Assembly (NCBI GenBank): GCA_902571955.1
Contig: CACGDZ010000001.1
Coordinates: 1-64,000 of the forward strand
Direction: 5' to 3'
Origin: an uncultured Pelagibacteraceae bacterium
GTDB lineage: Bacteria; Pseudomonadota; Alphaproteobacteria; Pelagibacterales; Pelagibacteraceae
Length of the DNA stretch: 64,000 nucleotides
Shown here piece after piece: positions 42,244-50,328 of the stretch; position 1 is the stretch's first letter, and each line of letters starts with the position of its first letter. The position numbers and the translations under genes were made by a program. The notes beneath the pieces were generated by a model. It worked only from the letters and a program-made list of their open reading frames with translations, was not told the DNA's origin and did no database searches.

Positions 42244-43188
42244 ATGACTAAATTAAAAGGTATTTTATTAACTCAAGGTATGCACGGAATGATAAGCCAA
42301 GTTGAAGGATTGGCTAAAGCCCTTGAAATTGAATTTACACACCACAAGGTTGAACTAAATAATTTTTGGAATATGCTTCCACCAAAATTTACTCCCATCT
42401 CACAAAGTGTGTATAAAAAAATAGTGCACTTAGATTTTGATATAATTATATCCTGCGGAAGAAAGAGTGTAATTCCCTCAATTCATTTAAAAAGTATTTC
42501 AAATAAAAAAGTATTTAACATTCATATCCAGGATCCAAAAGTAGATTTAAACCATTTTGATTTTGTAATAGCTCCTGAACATGATGGAATAAAAGGTTCA
42601 AATGTAATTTCTACCAAAGGAGCAATACATTATCTTACAGAAAATGAAATCGAGGAAAATAAGCATTATTTAAATTCATTTATTAAAAAAGATGAAAGAA
42701 AAATTTGGTCTTTAATTTTGGGTGGGCCCACCAAATATTATGATTATTCAACAAAAAATATGAAACATATTTTTTCAATTTTTTATAAATTGTTAAAGAA
42801 ACATAATTTTCAACTTGTGGTAATTCCATCAATGAGAACACCACTGAATACTATTCATTATGCTAAAGAATTTTTTGGAGAAAATCACACAATTATAATG
42901 GATGTTGATAAGAGAGCTTATTTATCAGCACTAGGTTTATCTGAAAATATTGTGGTTACTTGTGACTCTAGCTCGATGATATCGGAAGCAGCTTTGACTG
43001 GAAAGCCTATTTATATAGCAAATATTTTACCAAAAAGAAATGATAAGAGATTTCAAAACTTTAGAAATCTATTTAGAGAATTAAATATCACAAGAAATTT
43101 AGGAGAAGAAATAGAAAATTGGAACTATGAAAAACTTGATGAAACGAATAGAGTTGCGAGAATATTAAAAACTAAAATCCAAAATTAA
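42244..43188 (+). CDS. ELM1-like protein (DUF1022)
   Basis: A 314-residue protein of the family named after plant mitochondrial fission factor ELM1. Recognisable segments are LTQGMHGMISQVEGLAKAL at the N-terminus, IISCGRKSV near residue 76, the HIQDPKVDLNHFDFVIAPEHDG block near residue 103, and VVTCDSSSMISEAALTGKPIY near residue 245. The last resembles the nucleotide-sugar site of GT-B glycosyltransferases and UDP-GlcNAc epimerases. In alphaproteobacteria these proteins are uncharacterised; a sugar-transfer role fits the fold and the glycosyltransferase two genes downstream. It shares one base with the next gene (TAATG). Confidence 0.78.
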   Translation: MTKLKGILLTQGMHGMISQVEGLAKALEIEFTHHKVELNNFWNMLPPKFTPISQSVYKKIVHLDFDIIISCGRKSVIPSIHLKSISNKKVFNIHIQDPKVDLNHFDFVIAPEHDGIKGSNVISTKGAIHYLTENEIEENKHYLNSFIKKDERKIWSLILGGPTKYYDYSTKNMKHIFSIFYKLLKKHNFQLVVIPSMRTPLNTIHYAKEFFGENHTIIMDVDKRAYLSALGLSENIVVTCDSSSMISEAALTGKPIYIANILPKRNDKRFQNFRNLFRELNITRNLGEEIENWNYEKLDETNRVARILKTKIQN

Positions 43189-43850
43189 TGTCATTTTTAA
43201 ATTCAATTAAAAACAATTCAAAAGAATATAATTTCCCTTTTAATCATTGGGAATATAGTAACGCTTTGTCAGAAGAGGCAATTGATGAAATAGTTAAAGC
43301 AGATATTCCTGATGTCAGTAAATATAATCTTAATTATGACGGAACAAGAGCAATAGATGGTGGAGCTGCAGAATTTAGGAAAGGTATAGCTTCAGGGGGA
43401 GAAGCAAAAAAGTTTAGATGTTTTATTAATAAAGAAAATTCCTATCAATTCCCAAATTTAGTAAAATTTATAAATGAACTTCAGTCCAAAGAAACATATG
43501 AAACAATTTCTAAAATGATAAATAAAGATTTATCAAATTCCTATGTTAGGGTTGAGGTAATATGCGATCGAGAAGGTTTTTGGCTTAAACCACATTGCGA
43601 TATAGAAGAAAAACTTATGTCAGGTTTAATATTTGTTAATAAAACCAATGAATCCGAGGACTTGGGTACTGATTTTTACAATGAAAAATTAGAAAAGGTA
43701 AAGACACTTCCTTACAAACATAATTATGGGTATCTTTTTACAAGTGGACCAAACACATGGCATGGAATGGAGAAGAAAAAAATTATAAAAGAAAGACGAT
43801 GTATTCAAGTAAATTATGTTACTTTTCCGACTGATTGGAAAGTAAAGTAA
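43188..43850 (+). CDS. 2-oxoglutarate/Fe(II)-dependent oxygenase-like protein
   Basis: The 220-residue protein has the HxD...H...R facial-triad pattern of 2OG-Fe(II) oxygenases. The pair is FWLKPHCDIEEKLMSG near residue 130, a distal His is in GPNTWHGMEKK near residue 190, and the 2OG-binding Arg is in KERRCIQVNYV. It likely hydroxylates a small molecule, sugar or protein side chain; the substrate is unknown. It lies between an ELM1-like gene and a glycosyltransferase with one-base overlaps on both sides, so the three form a translationally coupled operon. Confidence 0.75.
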   Translation: MSFLNSIKNNSKEYNFPFNHWEYSNALSEEAIDEIVKADIPDVSKYNLNYDGTRAIDGGAAEFRKGIASGGEAKKFRCFINKENSYQFPNLVKFINELQSKETYETISKMINKDLSNSYVRVEVICDREGFWLKPHCDIEEKLMSGLIFVNKTNESEDLGTDFYNEKLEKVKTLPYKHNYGYLFTSGPNTWHGMEKKKIIKERRCIQVNYVTFPTDWKVK

Positions 43851-44557
43851 TGATGGATAAATTAAGTTTAGTTATTCCTATACTAAATGAAGAAAAAAAT
43901 ATTTTACCTTTAACAAACAAAATTATTCAAAATTTAACTAAAATTAAATATGAAATTATTTTTGTTGATGACAGTTCGATAGATAATAGTAGGCAAAAGT
44001 TAAAAAAATTAAAAAAAAAATACAAATTTTTAAAGCCAATTTATAGGAACAAAAAAAGAGATCTTTGTCAATCCTGTTTTGATGGTATTAGAAAATCTAT
44101 ATACAAAAATATTTTGATCATGGATGGAGATTTACAGCATGATCCAAAATATATAAAAAAAATGTTAAAAATTTATAATAAATATAATCTTGATATAGTT
44201 ATTGGGTCAAGAAAACTTCTTGATGGTAAAAATAAAGGATTGTCAGAACCAAGAAGGTTCGCATCTATATTACTTATTTACTTATTTGGAATATTTAAGC
44301 TTGAAACTAACGATCCAATGAGTGGTTTTTTTTTATTTAAAAAAGAAATTTACCATGAAAATAAAAAATTTTTTTTTGGTAAAGGATTTAAAATTCTTGT
44401 AGATTTTTTAATAAATTCTAAGCAAAATTTACAAACAAAAGATGTAACTATAGATTTTAACCGAAGATATAATAGTGAAAGCAAAATGAGTTTAAAGGTT
44501 TTATTTATCTTGATCCAATTTTATTTAATTAGTTTAGTGAAAAAAATTTTTGTTTAA
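43850..44557 (+). CDS. family 2 glycosyltransferase, polyprenyl-phosphate-sugar type
   Basis: The 235-residue GT-A enzyme has LVIPILNEEKNILPL, then IIFVDDSSIDNSRQ and ILIMDGDLQHDPKYI with the DxD-like metal site. VIGSRKLLDGKNKGLSEPRR and TNDPMSGFFLFKKEI resemble dolichyl-phosphate-mannose synthase. Sequence ends with one hydrophobic segment (LFILIQFYLISLVKKIF) that could anchor it. I start it at the ATG at 43850, which overlaps the preceding stop (TAATG); the GTG-type start at 43835 is unnecessary. It probably transfers a sugar to a polyprenyl phosphate or a cell-surface glycan. It ends 9 bases from the carB fragment. Confidence 0.82.
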   Translation: MMDKLSLVIPILNEEKNILPLTNKIIQNLTKIKYEIIFVDDSSIDNSRQKLKKLKKKYKFLKPIYRNKKRDLCQSCFDGIRKSIYKNILIMDGDLQHDPKYIKKMLKIYNKYNLDIVIGSRKLLDGKNKGLSEPRRFASILLIYLFGIFKLETNDPMSGFFLFKKEIYHENKKFFFGKGFKILVDFLINSKQNLQTKDVTIDFNRRYNSESKMSLKVLFILIQFYLISLVKKIFV

Positions 44558-44566
44558 ATTCAATTA

Positions 44567-44818
44567 TTAAATATCCTGAAGGGATGTTACCTCTAATCTT
44601 TTTGTCTTAAGTGATTTAATCGCCTCCAGACATGCTTGTGCTGTTGACATATTAGTGCAATAAGGAACTTTATTTTTAAGTGTTGCCCTTCTTAAAGCTA
44701 TTGCATCACTTAATCGATGTTCACTGTTTCCAACCCTAGTATCTATTACTAGTCCAATTTTTTTAGAAGCTAAAATATCTACTATATGAGGTGAATTTGT
44801 GCTTACTTTATTTATAAT
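44567..44818 (-). repeat. direct repeat copy 1 (carB 3' end)
   Basis: This is the first of two same-orientation copies of the last 84 codons of carB, about 83% identical to copy 2 (47104-47355). Homology stops at 44818, exactly where the Anbu stop codon lies. Confidence 0.85.
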
Positions 44819-44830
44819 TATTTTTCCCAT
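44567..44830 (-). pseudogene. detached copy of the carB 3' end (MGS domain fragment)
   Basis: The 87-codon frame matches the last 83 residues of CarB encoded at 47104-50328: by eye 74 of 83 residues are identical, including [14 protein letters not shown] and [11 protein letters not shown]. It covers only the allosteric MGS-like domain, so it cannot be a working synthetase. Over the 252 aligned bases I count about 43 mismatches, most of them silent. The frame starts at an ATG inside the last codons of the Anbu gene (13-base overlap) and could be translated. It reads as a leftover 3' end from insertion or homologous exchange at carB; a retained ligand-binding protein is less likely. Confidence 0.88.
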
Positions 44831-45543
44831 TCAAATCTGGGAAATGAGTCAAAAACTTTAAATATTCCTTCTGACCACTGGTTACAAACTCGGGAATAAG
44901 TTTCGTCAGAAAGATTTAAACATTCAAGTGAAGCTAATTTTTCATTATCTTTTTTATGTACAGCAAAATCTATTGGTGGGCCTACTGTTAAATCACTTTT
45001 TAAGGTTGAGTCCATCGAAATTAATGCGCAACGTGATGCGTCTCCAATAGATACGTTTGGTTTGATTACTCTATCTAATATTGGTTTACCATATTTTACT
45101 TCTCCAATTACAAGATAAGGTTTGCTGTCTGCAGGTCTTATAAAATTTCCTTGAGGATATATTAAATATAGTTCGTGTTGCTGACCTTTGATTTGTCCTC
45201 CAACTATAAATGTTGAACCAAGTAAAACATTATCTGTATTAATTCCTTGAGGTGAGGAGTGCTCAATATTTAGTGAACCAATATAGGAAGCTATTTGTTC
45301 AAAATCAGAGCATGTATTTAAGTTCATTATCCCAGTTGAGCTTTTTAAATCTTTCTCTATTGATTTATAAACTGCTTGAGAGGTACCTAAATTTCCTGAA
45401 GTGACTATTACGATTGTTCTATCACCTACATCGTGAGTCATCATTTTGGAATAAATATTTACATTATCTAATCCAGCATTTGTCCTTGAGTCTGAGGCAA
45501 ACACAAGACCGTCATTTGTTTTAATTCCTATGCAGTAAGTCAT
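44818..45543 (-). CDS. proteasome-type protease, Anbu/BPH family
   Basis: Anbu is an HslV/proteasome-related N-terminal-nucleophile hydrolase that assembles into open rings. In this 241-residue protein, removal of Met leaves Thr as residue 1. Asp17 (in FASDSRTNAG) and Lys32 (in IYSKMM) then fall at the catalytic positions of proteasome beta subunits. VIVTSGNLGTSQAV and FIVGGQIKGQQHELYLIYP are typical of the family. Anbu genes usually sit with an ATP-grasp, an alpha-E (DUF403) and a transglutaminase-like gene; only the ATP-grasp gene is here, divergent across 112 bases. The 3' end abuts the carB-derived repeat. Confidence 0.92.
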   Translation of the reverse strand: MTYCIGIKTNDGLVFASDSRTNAGLDNVNIYSKMMTHDVGDRTIVIVTSGNLGTSQAVYKSIEKDLKSSTGIMNLNTCSDFEQIASYIGSLNIEHSSPQGINTDNVLLGSTFIVGGQIKGQQHELYLIYPQGNFIRPADSKPYLVIGEVKYGKPILDRVIKPNVSIGDASRCALISMDSTLKSDLTVGPPIDFAVHKKDNEKLASLECLNLSDETYSRVCNQWSEGIFKVFDSFPRFEWEK

Positions 45544-45655
45544 AGAGTAAAATAATTAATTAACTATAACATTTTTTTAAAATCAATTAAAAGCATAACA
45601 GATATATCTAAAATGCATTTGCTTATTTTATTTAATTATTAAACACTATAATTCT

Positions 45656-47101
45656 ATGATATCAAAACTTTGGAAAAACTATAACTCAAGTTATGCATAT
45701 GATGGTTATTTTACTAAAGATAATAAACTTCGGAAACATGCTGCAATAATTTCATCAATTTTAGAAAAATACGGTAAAAAAAAACTTCAAGAAATTGAAA
45801 AAAATTGCCAAAGTACAATTAGTGCCAGAGGTATTAATTTTAGAGTATATGCAGCTAACAATAGGGCAGAGGAAAAAAAATGGCCACTTGATATAATACC
45901 AAGAATAATACCGAAGTCACAATGGAACAAAGTTTCAAAGGGTTTAAAGCAGCGTGTAAAGGCCTTAAATTTATTTATTGATGATGTTTATAATCAAAAA
46001 AAAATATTCAAAGATAAAGTAGTACCAAAAGAAATTATTTTTAATTCTCCATTTTATGTAAAGGAATGTGAGGGTTTTTCTCCTAAACACAAAGCTTGGT
46101 CAAATATTTCTGGAATTGATTTAATTAGGAATTCTAATGGTGATTATTTAGTTTTAGAAGATAATTTAAGAGTACCCTCGGGTGTATCTTACATGCTTGA
46201 AAACAGGATGGTGATGCGAGATGTATTTCCTGAATTATTTACAAGATATAAAGTTGCATCAATTCATCAATACACAAATAAATTATTTAACTGTATGGTT
46301 GAATGTATTCCAAAAAAAACTTCAAACCCTCACATGGTGGTTCTAACACCTGGTATATACAACTCTGCTTATTTTGAGCACTCTTTCTTAGCTGAACAGA
46401 TGGGCATTGCTTTGGTTGAAGGAAAAGATTTATTTGTTGAGAATGATATCGTTTATATGAAGACTGTTAAAGGTCCATTAAAGGTTGATTGTATCTATAG
46501 ACGTCTTGATGACAATTTTTTAGATCCAAAAGTATTTTTCAAAGATTCACTGATTGGGGTGCCAGGATTATTTAAAAGCTGGCGTAAAGGAAATGTTGGT
46601 ATAATAAATGCAATAGGGACAGGTGTTGCTGACGACAAGGCGGTTTACTCTTATGTTAACAAAATGATTGTTTATTATCTAGGTGAACAACCTATCTTAA
46701 ATCAGGTAGAAACTTACTTATGTCATAATAAAAATGAGAGAAACTATGTTATTGAAAATATTTCTAAGTTAGTTGTTAAACCTGCTAACGCATCTGGTGG
46801 TTATGGTATAATGATTGGTCCTAAAGCAGACAAAAAAGAGAGAGATGAGGTAATAGCTAAAATCAAAAAAAATCCAAGAGAATATATTGCACAACCTCTT
46901 GAAACTCTTTCAACTGCCCCAACAATTACTGAAAATGATATTGAACCAAGACATCTCGATTTAAGACCATTTGTACTTAGTGGAAAAACTACATATGTAA
47001 GCACAGGGGGATTAACTAGGGTTGCGCTTAGAAAAGGAAGTACAATTGTTAATAGTTCCCAAGGTGGAGGATCTAAAGACACTTTAATTGTTGACGTATA
47101 G
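45656..47101 (+). CDS. circularly permuted type 2 ATP-grasp protein (COG2308)
   Basis: The 481-residue protein belongs to the permuted ATP-grasp group typically encoded with Anbu proteases and thought to ligate an amino acid or peptide. Visible blocks are IIPKSQWNKVSKGLKQRVKA and LVLEDNLRVPSGVSYMLENR near residue 170. Later come DGxx-like VDCIYRRLDDNFLDP, KPANASGGYGIMIG near residue 378 (phosphate-binding loop), and the ending GGLTRVALRKGS followed by NSSQGGGSKDT. The full family length is present. A TATAAT lies 3 bases before the ATG, too close for a normal leader. The stop is 2 bases from the convergent carB stop. Its function is not known in any detail. Confidence 0.88.
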   Translation: MISKLWKNYNSSYAYDGYFTKDNKLRKHAAIISSILEKYGKKKLQEIEKNCQSTISARGINFRVYAANNRAEEKKWPLDIIPRIIPKSQWNKVSKGLKQRVKALNLFIDDVYNQKKIFKDKVVPKEIIFNSPFYVKECEGFSPKHKAWSNISGIDLIRNSNGDYLVLEDNLRVPSGVSYMLENRMVMRDVFPELFTRYKVASIHQYTNKLFNCMVECIPKKTSNPHMVVLTPGIYNSAYFEHSFLAEQMGIALVEGKDLFVENDIVYMKTVKGPLKVDCIYRRLDDNFLDPKVFFKDSLIGVPGLFKSWRKGNVGIINAIGTGVADDKAVYSYVNKMIVYYLGEQPILNQVETYLCHNKNERNYVIENISKLVVKPANASGGYGIMIGPKADKKERDEVIAKIKKNPREYIAQPLETLSTAPTITENDIEPRHLDLRPFVLSGKTTYVSTGGLTRVALRKGSTIVNSSQGGGSKDTLIVDV

Positions 47102-47103
47102 AT

Positions 47104-47355
47104 TTATATATCTTGAAGAGAATTAACTTCTAATTTTTTAGTTTTAAGTGATTTGATTGCTTGCAAACATGCTTGAGCAGTAGACATATTAGTACAGTAT
47201 GGGACCTTATTTTTTAATGTCGCTCTTCTTAAAGCTATAGCATCGCTTAATCGGTGTTCACTATTTCCACCTCCAGTATTTATAACTAATGCAATCTTTT
47301 TGGAATCTAAAATATCTACTATATGAGGTGAACCTGTGCTTACTTTATTTATAAT
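47104..47355 (-). repeat. direct repeat copy 2 (3' end of intact carB)
   Basis: The second copy of the repeat described at 44567-44818, here forming the functional 3' end of carB. Homology between the copies ends near 47355. The roughly 45 bases next to that end differ only at a single codon, and identity falls towards the stop codon. Confidence 0.85.
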
Positions 47356-50328
47356 TTTGCATTTCATCCCATGTTTTCGAATGTATTTTGCAGTTCCTCT
47401 AGTTGCACATAATTGAAATTTCAGTTTTAGAAGTTCTTTTGCTAAATCTATTCCTTCATCTTTATGAGAGTCTTTTAACGAAATAAAAGCTAAACCTTGT
47501 TTTGGTAAAGAGTTAGCTGCAGCAATTTGACTTTTGGCAAAAGCCATTCCGAAGTTTTTGTCAAATCCCATAACCTCACCAGTTGATTTCATTTCGGGTC
47601 CTAACAATAAGTCACTATTTGGAAATTTATTGAACGGAAAAACAGCTTCTTTAACTGCATACATACCTTTGGACTTATCTTTTAAATTAAATTTAGACAA
47701 TCTTTCTCCTGCCATTACTCTCGATGCAATTTTAGCTAAAGGAAGACCTTTCGCTTTTGATACAAAAGGAACTGTTCGGCTTGCTCTAGGATTTACTTCA
47801 ATGACATAAATTTCATCTTTCTTAATTGCATATTGTATATTCATGAAACCCTTTACATTTAAAGCTAAGGCTAGTTTTTTTGTTTGATTTTCTATTTTTC
47901 TAAGGAGGTATGGTTTGATTGATACTGGAGGCAGGCTACATGCTGAGTCTCCTGAATGAATTCCAGCTTCTTCGATATGCTGCATAATTCCAGCAACATA
48001 AACCTGTTTTCCATCTGATATAGCATCCACATCTACTTCCATTGCACTATCAATAAATTTGTCAATCAAAATTGGATTTTCTTCTGCGGCTTTAAATGCC
48101 TCTTCAACAAATTTTTTAAGCTGATTTTTTTCATGAACGATTTCCATTGCTCTTCCACCCAAAACATAAGATGGTCTCACCATTAATGGTAATCCTATTT
48201 TATCTGCAATTTTTATTGCCTGATCAAACGTCTTTGCAATTCCACTTTCTGCTTGTTTTAGTTTTAATTTATTTAATAAATTTCTAAATCGGTCTCTATC
48301 CTCTGCTAAATCAATAGAGGTATATTGGGTTCCTAAAATTGGAAGCTTGTTGTCGTGTAAAAATTTAGCAAGCTTAATCGGAGTTTGGCCACCAAACTGG
48401 GCTATTACACCTATCAGATTTCCTTTTTCTTGCTCTTTTTTAATTATGTTAAAAACGTATTCTTCTTTTAAAGGTTCAAAGTATAATCGATCACTAGTAT
48501 CATAATCTGTTGATACTGTTTCAGGGTTACAATTTACCATTATCGTCTCATAACCAGCATCTTTTAATGAAAAACTTGCCTGACAACAGCAATAATCAAA
48601 CTCAATTCCTTGGCCAATTCTATTTGGACCTCCTCCAAGAATAATTATTTTTTTCCTATTAGATGGGTCAGCTTCACATTGAGAGTTAATTGAAAAGTTT
48701 CTTTGATAGGTTGAATACATATAAGGCGTAAACGATTTGAATTCTGCTGCACATGTATCTACTTTTTTATAAACTGGAAGTATTTTAAAAGCTGATCTTT
48801 TTCTTCTAACAATATCTTCAGAAGTTTTAGTTAATTCTGAAAGTTTTTTATCTGAAAATCCTATTGATTTTATTCTATTAAATTCTACAAAATTTTGAGG
48901 AAGTCCTTTATTTTTGATTTGTATTTCACAATCAACTATTTCTTTAATTTGTTCTAAAAACCAAGGATCAATTTTCGATAAATTGTATATTCTCTTTAAG
49001 TCTATTTTTTTTCTAATTGCTTCAGCGACTAATAATATTTTATTTGGAATAGTTTCTTTAAGTTTTTTTTCAATTTGTTCTTTGTTTAAATCAAAAATTC
49101 TGTCTAAACCTGAAAAACCAGTTTCTAGAGACACTAAAGCCTTTTGTAGGGACTCTTTAAAGTTTCTTCCTATTGCCATTGCTTCACCTACTGATTTCAT
49201 TGATGTCCCTAAAGTTGCAGGAGAAGTTGAAAATTTTTCAAATGTAAATCTTGGAATTTTAGTGACTACATAATCAATACTTGGTTCAAATGATGCAGGA
49301 GTAACTTTAGTTATTTCATTTTTTAATTCATCTAGAGTATAACCAACTGCTAACTTTGCAGCCACTTTCGCAATTGGAAATCCAGTTGCTTTTGATGCAA
49401 GTGCTGATGATCTTGATACACGTGGGTTCATTTCAATTATAACCATTCGACCGTTTTTAGGATTGATAGCAAACTGAACATTTGATCCTCCAGTTTCAAC
49501 TCCAATTTTTCTCAAACATGCAATAGAAGCATTTCTCATCACTTGGTATTCTTTATCTGTAAGTGTAAGAGCTGGTGCAACTGTTACGGAGTCACCTGTA
49601 TGAATTCCCATTGGATCTATATTTTCAATTGAGCAAATGATGATACAGTTGTCTTTCTTATCTCTTACAACCTCCATCTCAAATTCTTTCCAACCCTCCA
49701 AACATTCCTCAACTAGAACTTGGCTTACGGGAGATTCGTGCAATCCATTTTTCACAATTTTAAAATAATCCTTTTTAGTTTTAGCTATTCCTCCACCAAG
49801 TCCACCAAGTGTAAAAGCAGGTCTTATAATTGCTGGCAATCCAATTTTTTTTAATACCTTTGATGCTTGGTTGTTGCTATTAACAATTTCAGATTTTGGT
49901 AAATCTAAACCAATATCAATCATGTTTTTTCTAAATTTCTTTCTGTCCTCAGCGTTAGAAATTGCTTTTGAATTCGCTCCTATCAATTCTATTTTGTATT
50001 TTTTTAAAAGTCCTCTTTTCTCAGCTTCCATTGCAAGATTAAGAGCAGTTTGACCGCCCATAGTTGGTAGAATTGCGTCTGGCTTTTCTTTTTTGAGGAT
50101 TTTTTCTAGTACGCCAAGTGTAATTGGCTCAATGTATGTTTTATCTGCAACATCTGGATCTGTCATAATTGTTGCTGGATTTGAATTTATTAGGACTACT
50201 TTATAACCTTCATCTTTTAAAGCTTTACATGCTTGTGTGCCTGAATAGTCAAATTCACACGCTTGCCCTATAATTATTGGACCAGCGCCCACGACTAAAA
50301 TTTTTTTAATATCTTTTCTTTTTGGCAT
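47104..50328 (-). CDS. carB: carbamoyl-phosphate synthase large subunit
   Basis: CarB makes carbamoyl phosphate for pyrimidines and arginine from bicarbonate, ATP and ammonia delivered by CarA. The 1074-residue protein is full length. It has two ATP-grasp halves, each starting with a GQ-type motif ([19 protein letters not shown] and [19 protein letters not shown]). Each half has a metal-binding block ending in ExNPRxSR ([20 protein letters not shown] and [20 protein letters not shown]). The C-terminal MGS-like allosteric domain ends [15 protein letters not shown]. Its first 23 bases overlap the end of carA. The 3' end is duplicated at 44567. Confidence 0.98.

Follow-up and report, generated by a model that had tools for sequence, protein, structure and literature searches.

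Probable fusion of two alternative cargos, one of them an Anbu protease module, at one site beside carB in an uncultured Pelagibacteraceae bacterium

The doubled carB end and its surroundings

We analysed a 64,000-nucleotide stretch of an uncultured Pelagibacteraceae genome (contig CACGDZ010000001.1, hereafter the window), in which the 3' end of carB occurs twice, around a small module made of an Anbu proteasome-type protease gene and its ATP-grasp partner. The genome is 88% complete, with 0.12% contamination. A repeat search placed the last 84 codons of carB at 44567-44819 and again, in the same orientation, at 47104-47356, with 83% identity over 253 nucleotides (nt). Aligned without gaps over 252 nt, the two copies show 43 differences (82.9% identity), distributed 7/6/30 over the three codon positions; their translations differ at 9 of 83 residues (89% protein identity). 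The second copy in the same genome was recovered at E 6e-71 by an 801-nt query over the displaced copy (the fragment), which excludes a chance repeat.

Only two genes lie between the copies, Anbu on the minus strand and the ATP-grasp gene on the plus strand. The Anbu stop codon (44818-44820) sits on the edge of the fragment, and the ATP-grasp stop ends 2 nt ahead of the carB stop. In all these respects, including its by-eye identities of about 83% for bases and 89% for protein, a preliminary description of this DNA proved accurate. It had overlooked the GT2 glycosyltransferase gene (GT2) that flanks the fragment on its other side, 9 nt apart (44557 to 44567). Leftward from GT2 follow a putative 2OG-Fe(II) oxygenase-like gene (2OG), an elm1-like gene (elm1) and trxB (coordinates in Table 1).

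The doubled carB tail was seen in this genome only. At E<=1e-33, two fragment matches occurred in 1 of 399 same-genus genomes, the own genome included; 214 of them gave any match, and the 185 that gave none were thus not tested. At E<=1e-3, it was again the own genome alone out of 201, 172 of which had a match, and none of 36 chosen genomes (a subset of the 399) had a doubled tail. For the junction, the 801-nt query had no full-length match outside the own genome among 150 relatives, and a 1098-nt query (E<=1e-60) matched at full length in the own genome only among 397 family members. These draws of genomes overlap, and many of the genomes are incomplete. The private feature is GT2 with the carB fragment beside the module; the module beside carB recurs in relatives.

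Two arrangements of the locus in relatives

Many close relatives carry the order elm1-2OG-Anbu-ATPgrasp-carB (haplotype B). Anbu and ATP-grasp adjoin carB in 20 of 20 loci picked as carriers, and 2OG and Anbu are neighbours in all 23 loci where both could be read, again picked as module carriers. The gap between 2OG and Anbu is mostly 7-9 nt from last sense codon to last sense codon, both stops included. Anbu was found in 167 of 399 genomes. By eye, it lies within about 5 kb of carB in 27 of 36 Anbu carriers, on another contig in seven and at an unreadable place in two; as these 36 had been selected for good Anbu matches, the share is biased. In G097 (contig 5, L100), a module 97% (Anbu) and 86% (ATP-grasp) like that of the window lies on a different contig from carB, and the gene pair thus also occurs away from the 2OG-carB site.

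The left half of the locus has its own counterpart. Through a GT2 search we found three genomes with 2OG-GT2-carB and no module (haplotype A). In AH-287-B05 (L142, apparently the 6780-nt contig of G277/L122) and AG-410-O02 (L143), GT2 is flanked by 2OG and carB; in AG-447-A16 (L141) it lies beside carB, and the contig starts just before GT2 and cuts 2OG. In G769, GT2 and the carB tail matched in one piece; this genome is possibly AG-410-O02 itself, the locus being on contig 9 in both, and was left out of the count. GT2 matches at E<=1e-20 were present in 45 of 399 genomes, mostly distant ones, with the gene otherwise elsewhere or at an unchecked location.

The window reads 2OG-GT2-carB tail, as in A, and then Anbu-ATPgrasp-carB, as in B: in gene order, the left half of A is followed by the right half of B. 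Since 2OG-GT2-carB exists in relatives without the module, the displaced carB end belongs with GT2. The preliminary description had taken it for the trace left by insertion of the module, a reading that this neighbourhood modifies.

Table 1. Features of the carB locus, in window coordinates
Feature	Position	Strand	Remarks
elm1-like gene (Mito_fiss_Elm1)	42244..43188	+	Pfam PF06258; allele of eight close haplotype B relatives
Probable homologous breakpoint, elm1/2OG	43150..43250	.	Suggested by the change in sliding identity
Putative 2OG-Fe(II) oxygenase-like gene	43188..43850	+	Pfam match weak (below cut-off); conserved gene to the left of the cargo site
GT2 glycosyltransferase, haplotype A cargo	43853..44557	+	PF00535
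Orphan carB 3' end, 84 codons with stop	44567..44818	-	Formal open reading frame 44567-44830
Putative illegitimate junction	44814..44820	.	Haplotype A, at carB codon ~992, would join the spacer of B that contains the 2OG and Anbu stop codons
Anbu proteasome-type protease	44818..45543	-	PF00227; PDB 5loy_A (designed Anbu), E 5e-62
Probable second homologous switch, in the 5' part of Anbu	45300..45450	.	Suggested by sliding identity
Circularly permuted ATP-grasp protein, Anbu partner, divergently transcribed	45656..47101	+	PF14403, E 2.4e-157; PDB 3n6x_A, E 3.5e-145
Intact carB	47104..50328	-	Scores above cut-off for NF003671 and TIGR01369; second repeat copy formed by its last 252 nt (47104-47355)

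Junction and flanking alleles

The join falls in a short AT-rich sequence that relatives have both in the carB tail and in the spacer with the 2OG and Anbu stop codons. The carB tail reads ...TTTATAATTTTAC... in the A relatives AG-447-A16 and G277, and the spacer reads ...AAATAATTTTATTTTTCCC... in the B relatives G343, G280, G237, G107 and G092; across the junction, the window has ...TTTATAATTATTTTTCCC.... The 9-mer ATAATTTTA is common to those carB tails and spacers, and the window has ATAATTA in its place, that is, the 9-mer minus two T. In random junctions simulated on the local sequence, an overlap of at least 2 nt arose in 21% and one of at least 8 nt in 0.08%.

On the left, elm1 of the window is 91% identical to that of eight close B genomes. 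Its identity is 82-84% to the close module-free genomes AG-410-O02, G058, G076 and G166, and 82.6% to the B genome G092. The elm1 tree joins the window with the eight B genomes (support 100/100), and a grouping with the four module-free genomes and G092 was rejected (approximately unbiased test, p-AU 0.0018). The two A genomes with a readable elm1 have other alleles than the window. The 2OG gene shows 90-92% identity to the four module-free genomes and 88-90% to nine close B genomes, and its tree puts the window with the former (support 81/95); the 2OG allele thus leans towards the module-free relatives. In sliding identity, the affinity changes at the elm1/2OG boundary.

On the right, Anbu matches G107, G343, G280 and G237 at 94-98% identity in its 3' half. 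From about 45.3-45.45 kb onwards, the module is of the type of G122, G022, G093 and G273 (94-99%), and the former group is only 66-82% identical to the window. Deeply different alleles of the module exist, with ATP-grasp DNA at about 79% versus 96% identity to the window. They have recombined inside Anbu in the window and apparently also in G122 (L068), there at a different point.

The fragment covers positions 37-94 of the 94-position MGS profile, which is only part of that allosteric domain. A formal 87-codon open reading frame (44567-44830) is kept open by an ATG that overlaps the Anbu stop. At sites invariant in 78 other carB tails, the fragment carries the private residues G8N, N26D, G28R and G29V, with changes in the NTGGGN stretch; it has four private residues, and no other tail has more than two. 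Each repeat copy is nearer to G343 (88 and 89%) than to the other copy (83%). The silent differences of the fragment were probably inherited from a living carB allele, and its amino-acid differences look like decay after detachment. Thus, the proposal that both copies diverged within working carB genes probably holds for the silent changes, and the four private residues speak against it. The fragment most likely has no function. Trees of the copies with carB of other strains, as the preliminary description had advised, allow on these 249 nt both a grouping of the fragment with A genomes (p-AU 0.516) and a sisterhood with the intact carB tail (p-AU 0.36).

A cargo site between 2OG and carB

We sampled 40 genomes at this site (39 in listing order up to G067, plus G297), leaving out genomes already covered at this locus, genomes without a listed carB match and one at a contig end. 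In 30 of them neither cargo is present, and the stop codons of 2OG and carB are directly adjacent or overlapping (-3 to +5 nt). One genome has the module, five have other DNA of 369-761 nt, and four have another or an unreadable neighbour. Module-free strains with the 2OG side directly beside carB, which the preliminary description had suggested looking for, are thus common in the sample.

Other cargo at the same site, likewise anticipated there, came from loci chosen for other reasons. A MOSC-domain gene occupies the 2OG-carB interval in L090 (Pfam) and, judged by sight, a similar one in L096; in L091 the interval holds a D-Ala ligase-like ATP-grasp gene, and in L134 a cupredoxin with a NAD-binding gene. 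In G129 (L092 857-8159), it spans about 7.3 kb with a multicopper oxidase, the small chain of a ribonucleotide reductase, a regulator of the Crp type and another 2OG-like gene, 32% identical. No integrase was found among nine cargo proteins scanned from these intervals, and neither an integrase nor a recombinase in the window between 43853 and 47101, where the genes are GT2, the carB end, Anbu and ATP-grasp, so the earlier remark that none is in view holds for the genes present. Between 2OG and carB there is a genuine cargo site, whose contents vary and where no integrase is in view. We rejected site-specific integration: there is no such enzyme among these genes, and the repeats are 82.9% identical, whereas attachment repeats are expected to be near-identical.

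Some further contents of the site were observed. In G359 (L130 7552-10118), a 785-residue autotransporter gene lies between ATP-grasp and carB with the module present, which is a second way to stack cargo at this site. Proteins of 81 to 86 residues that look alike by sight occur in the interval in L091 (7579-7824), L165/G003, L168/G007, L177/G021 and L201/G064; the single one scanned had no Pfam match. Beside carB in G062 (L200), a 51-codon frame resembles by sight a shortened MOSC-domain gene and is perhaps a decayed cargo remnant. The carB 3' neighbour differs in L184/G036, L198/G060 and L202/G067, where it encodes large proteins of about 740-765 residues.

Discussion

Probably, two allelic haplotypes of a single cargo site, which lies between the convergent 2OG and carB genes, were fused at this locus. 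A module-bearing (B) cell would have received A DNA spanning 2OG-GT2-carB tail. The left end of this DNA would have entered by homologous recombination near the elm1/2OG boundary, and the right end, inside carB and without a homologous partner in place, by illegitimate joining at the Anbu stop. The imported carB end would thereby have become an orphan, now decaying, and a separate homologous exchange may have brought in the present ATP-grasp gene together with the 5' end of Anbu. The function of the cargo genes need not have been altered. The process is already known and the instance is new; we infer its direction, and import of the A segment into a B cell is the likelier one because elm1 further left is B-type, which is not conclusive. 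Accordingly, the earlier idea of import between related strains survives as a one-sided insertion with displacement rather than a simple duplication, and the direction it assumed is probably, not conclusively, to be reversed.

Several observations weigh against this fusion or its direction. Haplotype A is known in three genomes only. The strict ungapped overlap at the junction is 2 nt, and 9 nt requires a later loss of two T; moreover, AG-410-O02 and the window's own carB have only ATAATTTT of the 9-mer (8 of 9 nt), and the B genomes G122 and G022 have a different 2OG/Anbu spacer. The B genome G092 has no B-type elm1, so the linkage of elm1 with the module is not strict. As to direction, a grouping of the window's 2OG with seven B genomes was not rejected (p-AU 0.106), and the 2OG tree sets two B genomes, G343 and G092, next to the module-free group. 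In the best carB-tail tree, the fragment stands loosely near the B genomes G093, G273, G022 and G122, and not near A genomes. Besides, ComEC and DprA had no match in the 88%-complete own genome; transformation is thus not supported, the absence being weak evidence.

The same final gene order would arise in reverse, if a cell of haplotype A had imported Anbu-ATPgrasp-carB from a B strain and its old carB end had been displaced. Such import could have gone through a homologous crossover inside carB with an illegitimate one at the Anbu end, or through a circularised donor piece integrated by one crossover in the carB tail, and a single crossover usually yields direct repeats. The tree of the fragment is not contrary. 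The intact carB end and the ATP-grasp spacer match G022, G093, G122 and G273 over about 30 nt, as imported DNA would, but later exchange explains that match equally. However, B-type elm1 stands left of GT2, and two A genomes have other elm1 alleles, so that the reverse direction needs an extra exchange on the left. We regard it as possible but rather unlikely.

Two further explanations were considered. The contig could be chimeric, put together from a strain mixture or produced when two cells were amplified. Strain mixing could account for the nearby switches in identity, and amplification chimeras also arise at short shared sequences. An artefact nevertheless seems very unlikely: the sequence shared at the junction is at most 9 nt and usual assembly word sizes are far above that, the fragment is 17% different from the genome's own carB, the genome holds no third carB-tail match, contamination is 0.12%, and the private amino-acid changes suggest evolution after detachment. 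An old tandem duplication of the carB end in a single lineage, with insertion of the module between the two copies, is compatible with the unrejected sisterhood on 249 nt (p-AU 0.36). We think it extremely improbable: the copies, at 88 and 89%, are both nearer to G343 than to each other (83%), the A and B arrangements are found separately in relatives, and the fragment has GT2 as its neighbour just as carB does in A genomes. Of the two findings that together had been said to make such a duplication preferable, the presence of fragment and module in all relatives is clearly not what we see, and sisterhood of the repeats is not rejected.

The fusion resembles homology-facilitated illegitimate recombination (HFIR). 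HFIR has one homologous and one illegitimate end, the latter mostly with 3-10 nt of microhomology, inserts about 1 kb and is generally accompanied by a deletion of similar size (PMC3240628). RecA dependence and linear donor DNA are further hallmarks. The cases reported in that source came from natural transformation (S. pneumoniae, A. baylyi, P. stutzeri) and from conjugation in E. coli. Our case would likewise have one end of each kind, with about 1 kb of new DNA; it differs in being read from one natural genome and in that almost nothing was deleted. Regarding the homologous end, the elm1 test was significant and the 2OG test was not, and microhomology at the other end is 2 nt strictly or 9 nt if two T were later lost.

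Orphan 3' pieces beside a new module are also described for the immunity genes of type VI loci in Vibrio cholerae and for the 3' regions of rhs loci; the same one-sided mechanism was proposed for the displaced immunity genes (PMC5361080). Those orphan immunity genes are thought still useful there, whereas the orphan in the window would be the decaying end of a housekeeping gene. Replacement flexible genomic islands of aquatic prokaryotes share with our site alternative content at one place and homologous exchange of flanks without an integrase; they hold surface-structure genes and show no clear illegitimate marks, whereas the site here takes one to a few genes and bears one such mark (PMC4033161). 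SAR11 recombination is called promiscuous in one study, which also describes deep-sea SAR11 representatives without mutS and mutL (PMC12374537). We found no match to a MutS domain in the own genome, which is in line with this, the absence being weak evidence at 88% completeness.

With both parental arrangements present in relatives, the locus would show how a one-sided event can stack two alternative cargos at one site instead of exchanging them, and an orphan housekeeping-gene end is a recognisable footprint for counting such events in other genomes. We tentatively suggest that the abutting 2OG and carB stops form an integrase-free site where SAR11-type bacteria may acquire and stack small modules one-sidedly, leaving orphan carB ends, and that the window may be a rare case with both parental arrangements known. 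In a bolder version, the orphan end would still be made as a protein, a free-standing half of the regulatory domain of CarB. In a literature search on SAR11 carB genomic islands, no title concerned this site among the matches listed, which included word-start matches like 'carbon'.

Finally, members of one genus may have or lack the Anbu/ATP-grasp module, which is itself a mosaic. The Anbu protein starts with MTYC, so that the catalytic threonine immediately follows the start methionine, and it belongs to the family: residues 2-240 align to the designed Anbu 5loy_A (E 5e-62). Among the matches listed in a search of the literature, no paper was plainly about an Anbu protease in SAR11. In a study of the Anbu operon, ATP-grasp, Alpha-E and transglutaminase genes are frequent neighbours of Anbu (PMC5666114); the 88%-complete own genome had no Alpha-E match. 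As in that operon, the protease is close to the designed Anbu-1 consensus and has an ATP-grasp partner; unlike the operon described there, Anbu and ATP-grasp are divergent here and do not form one operon (PMC5666114).

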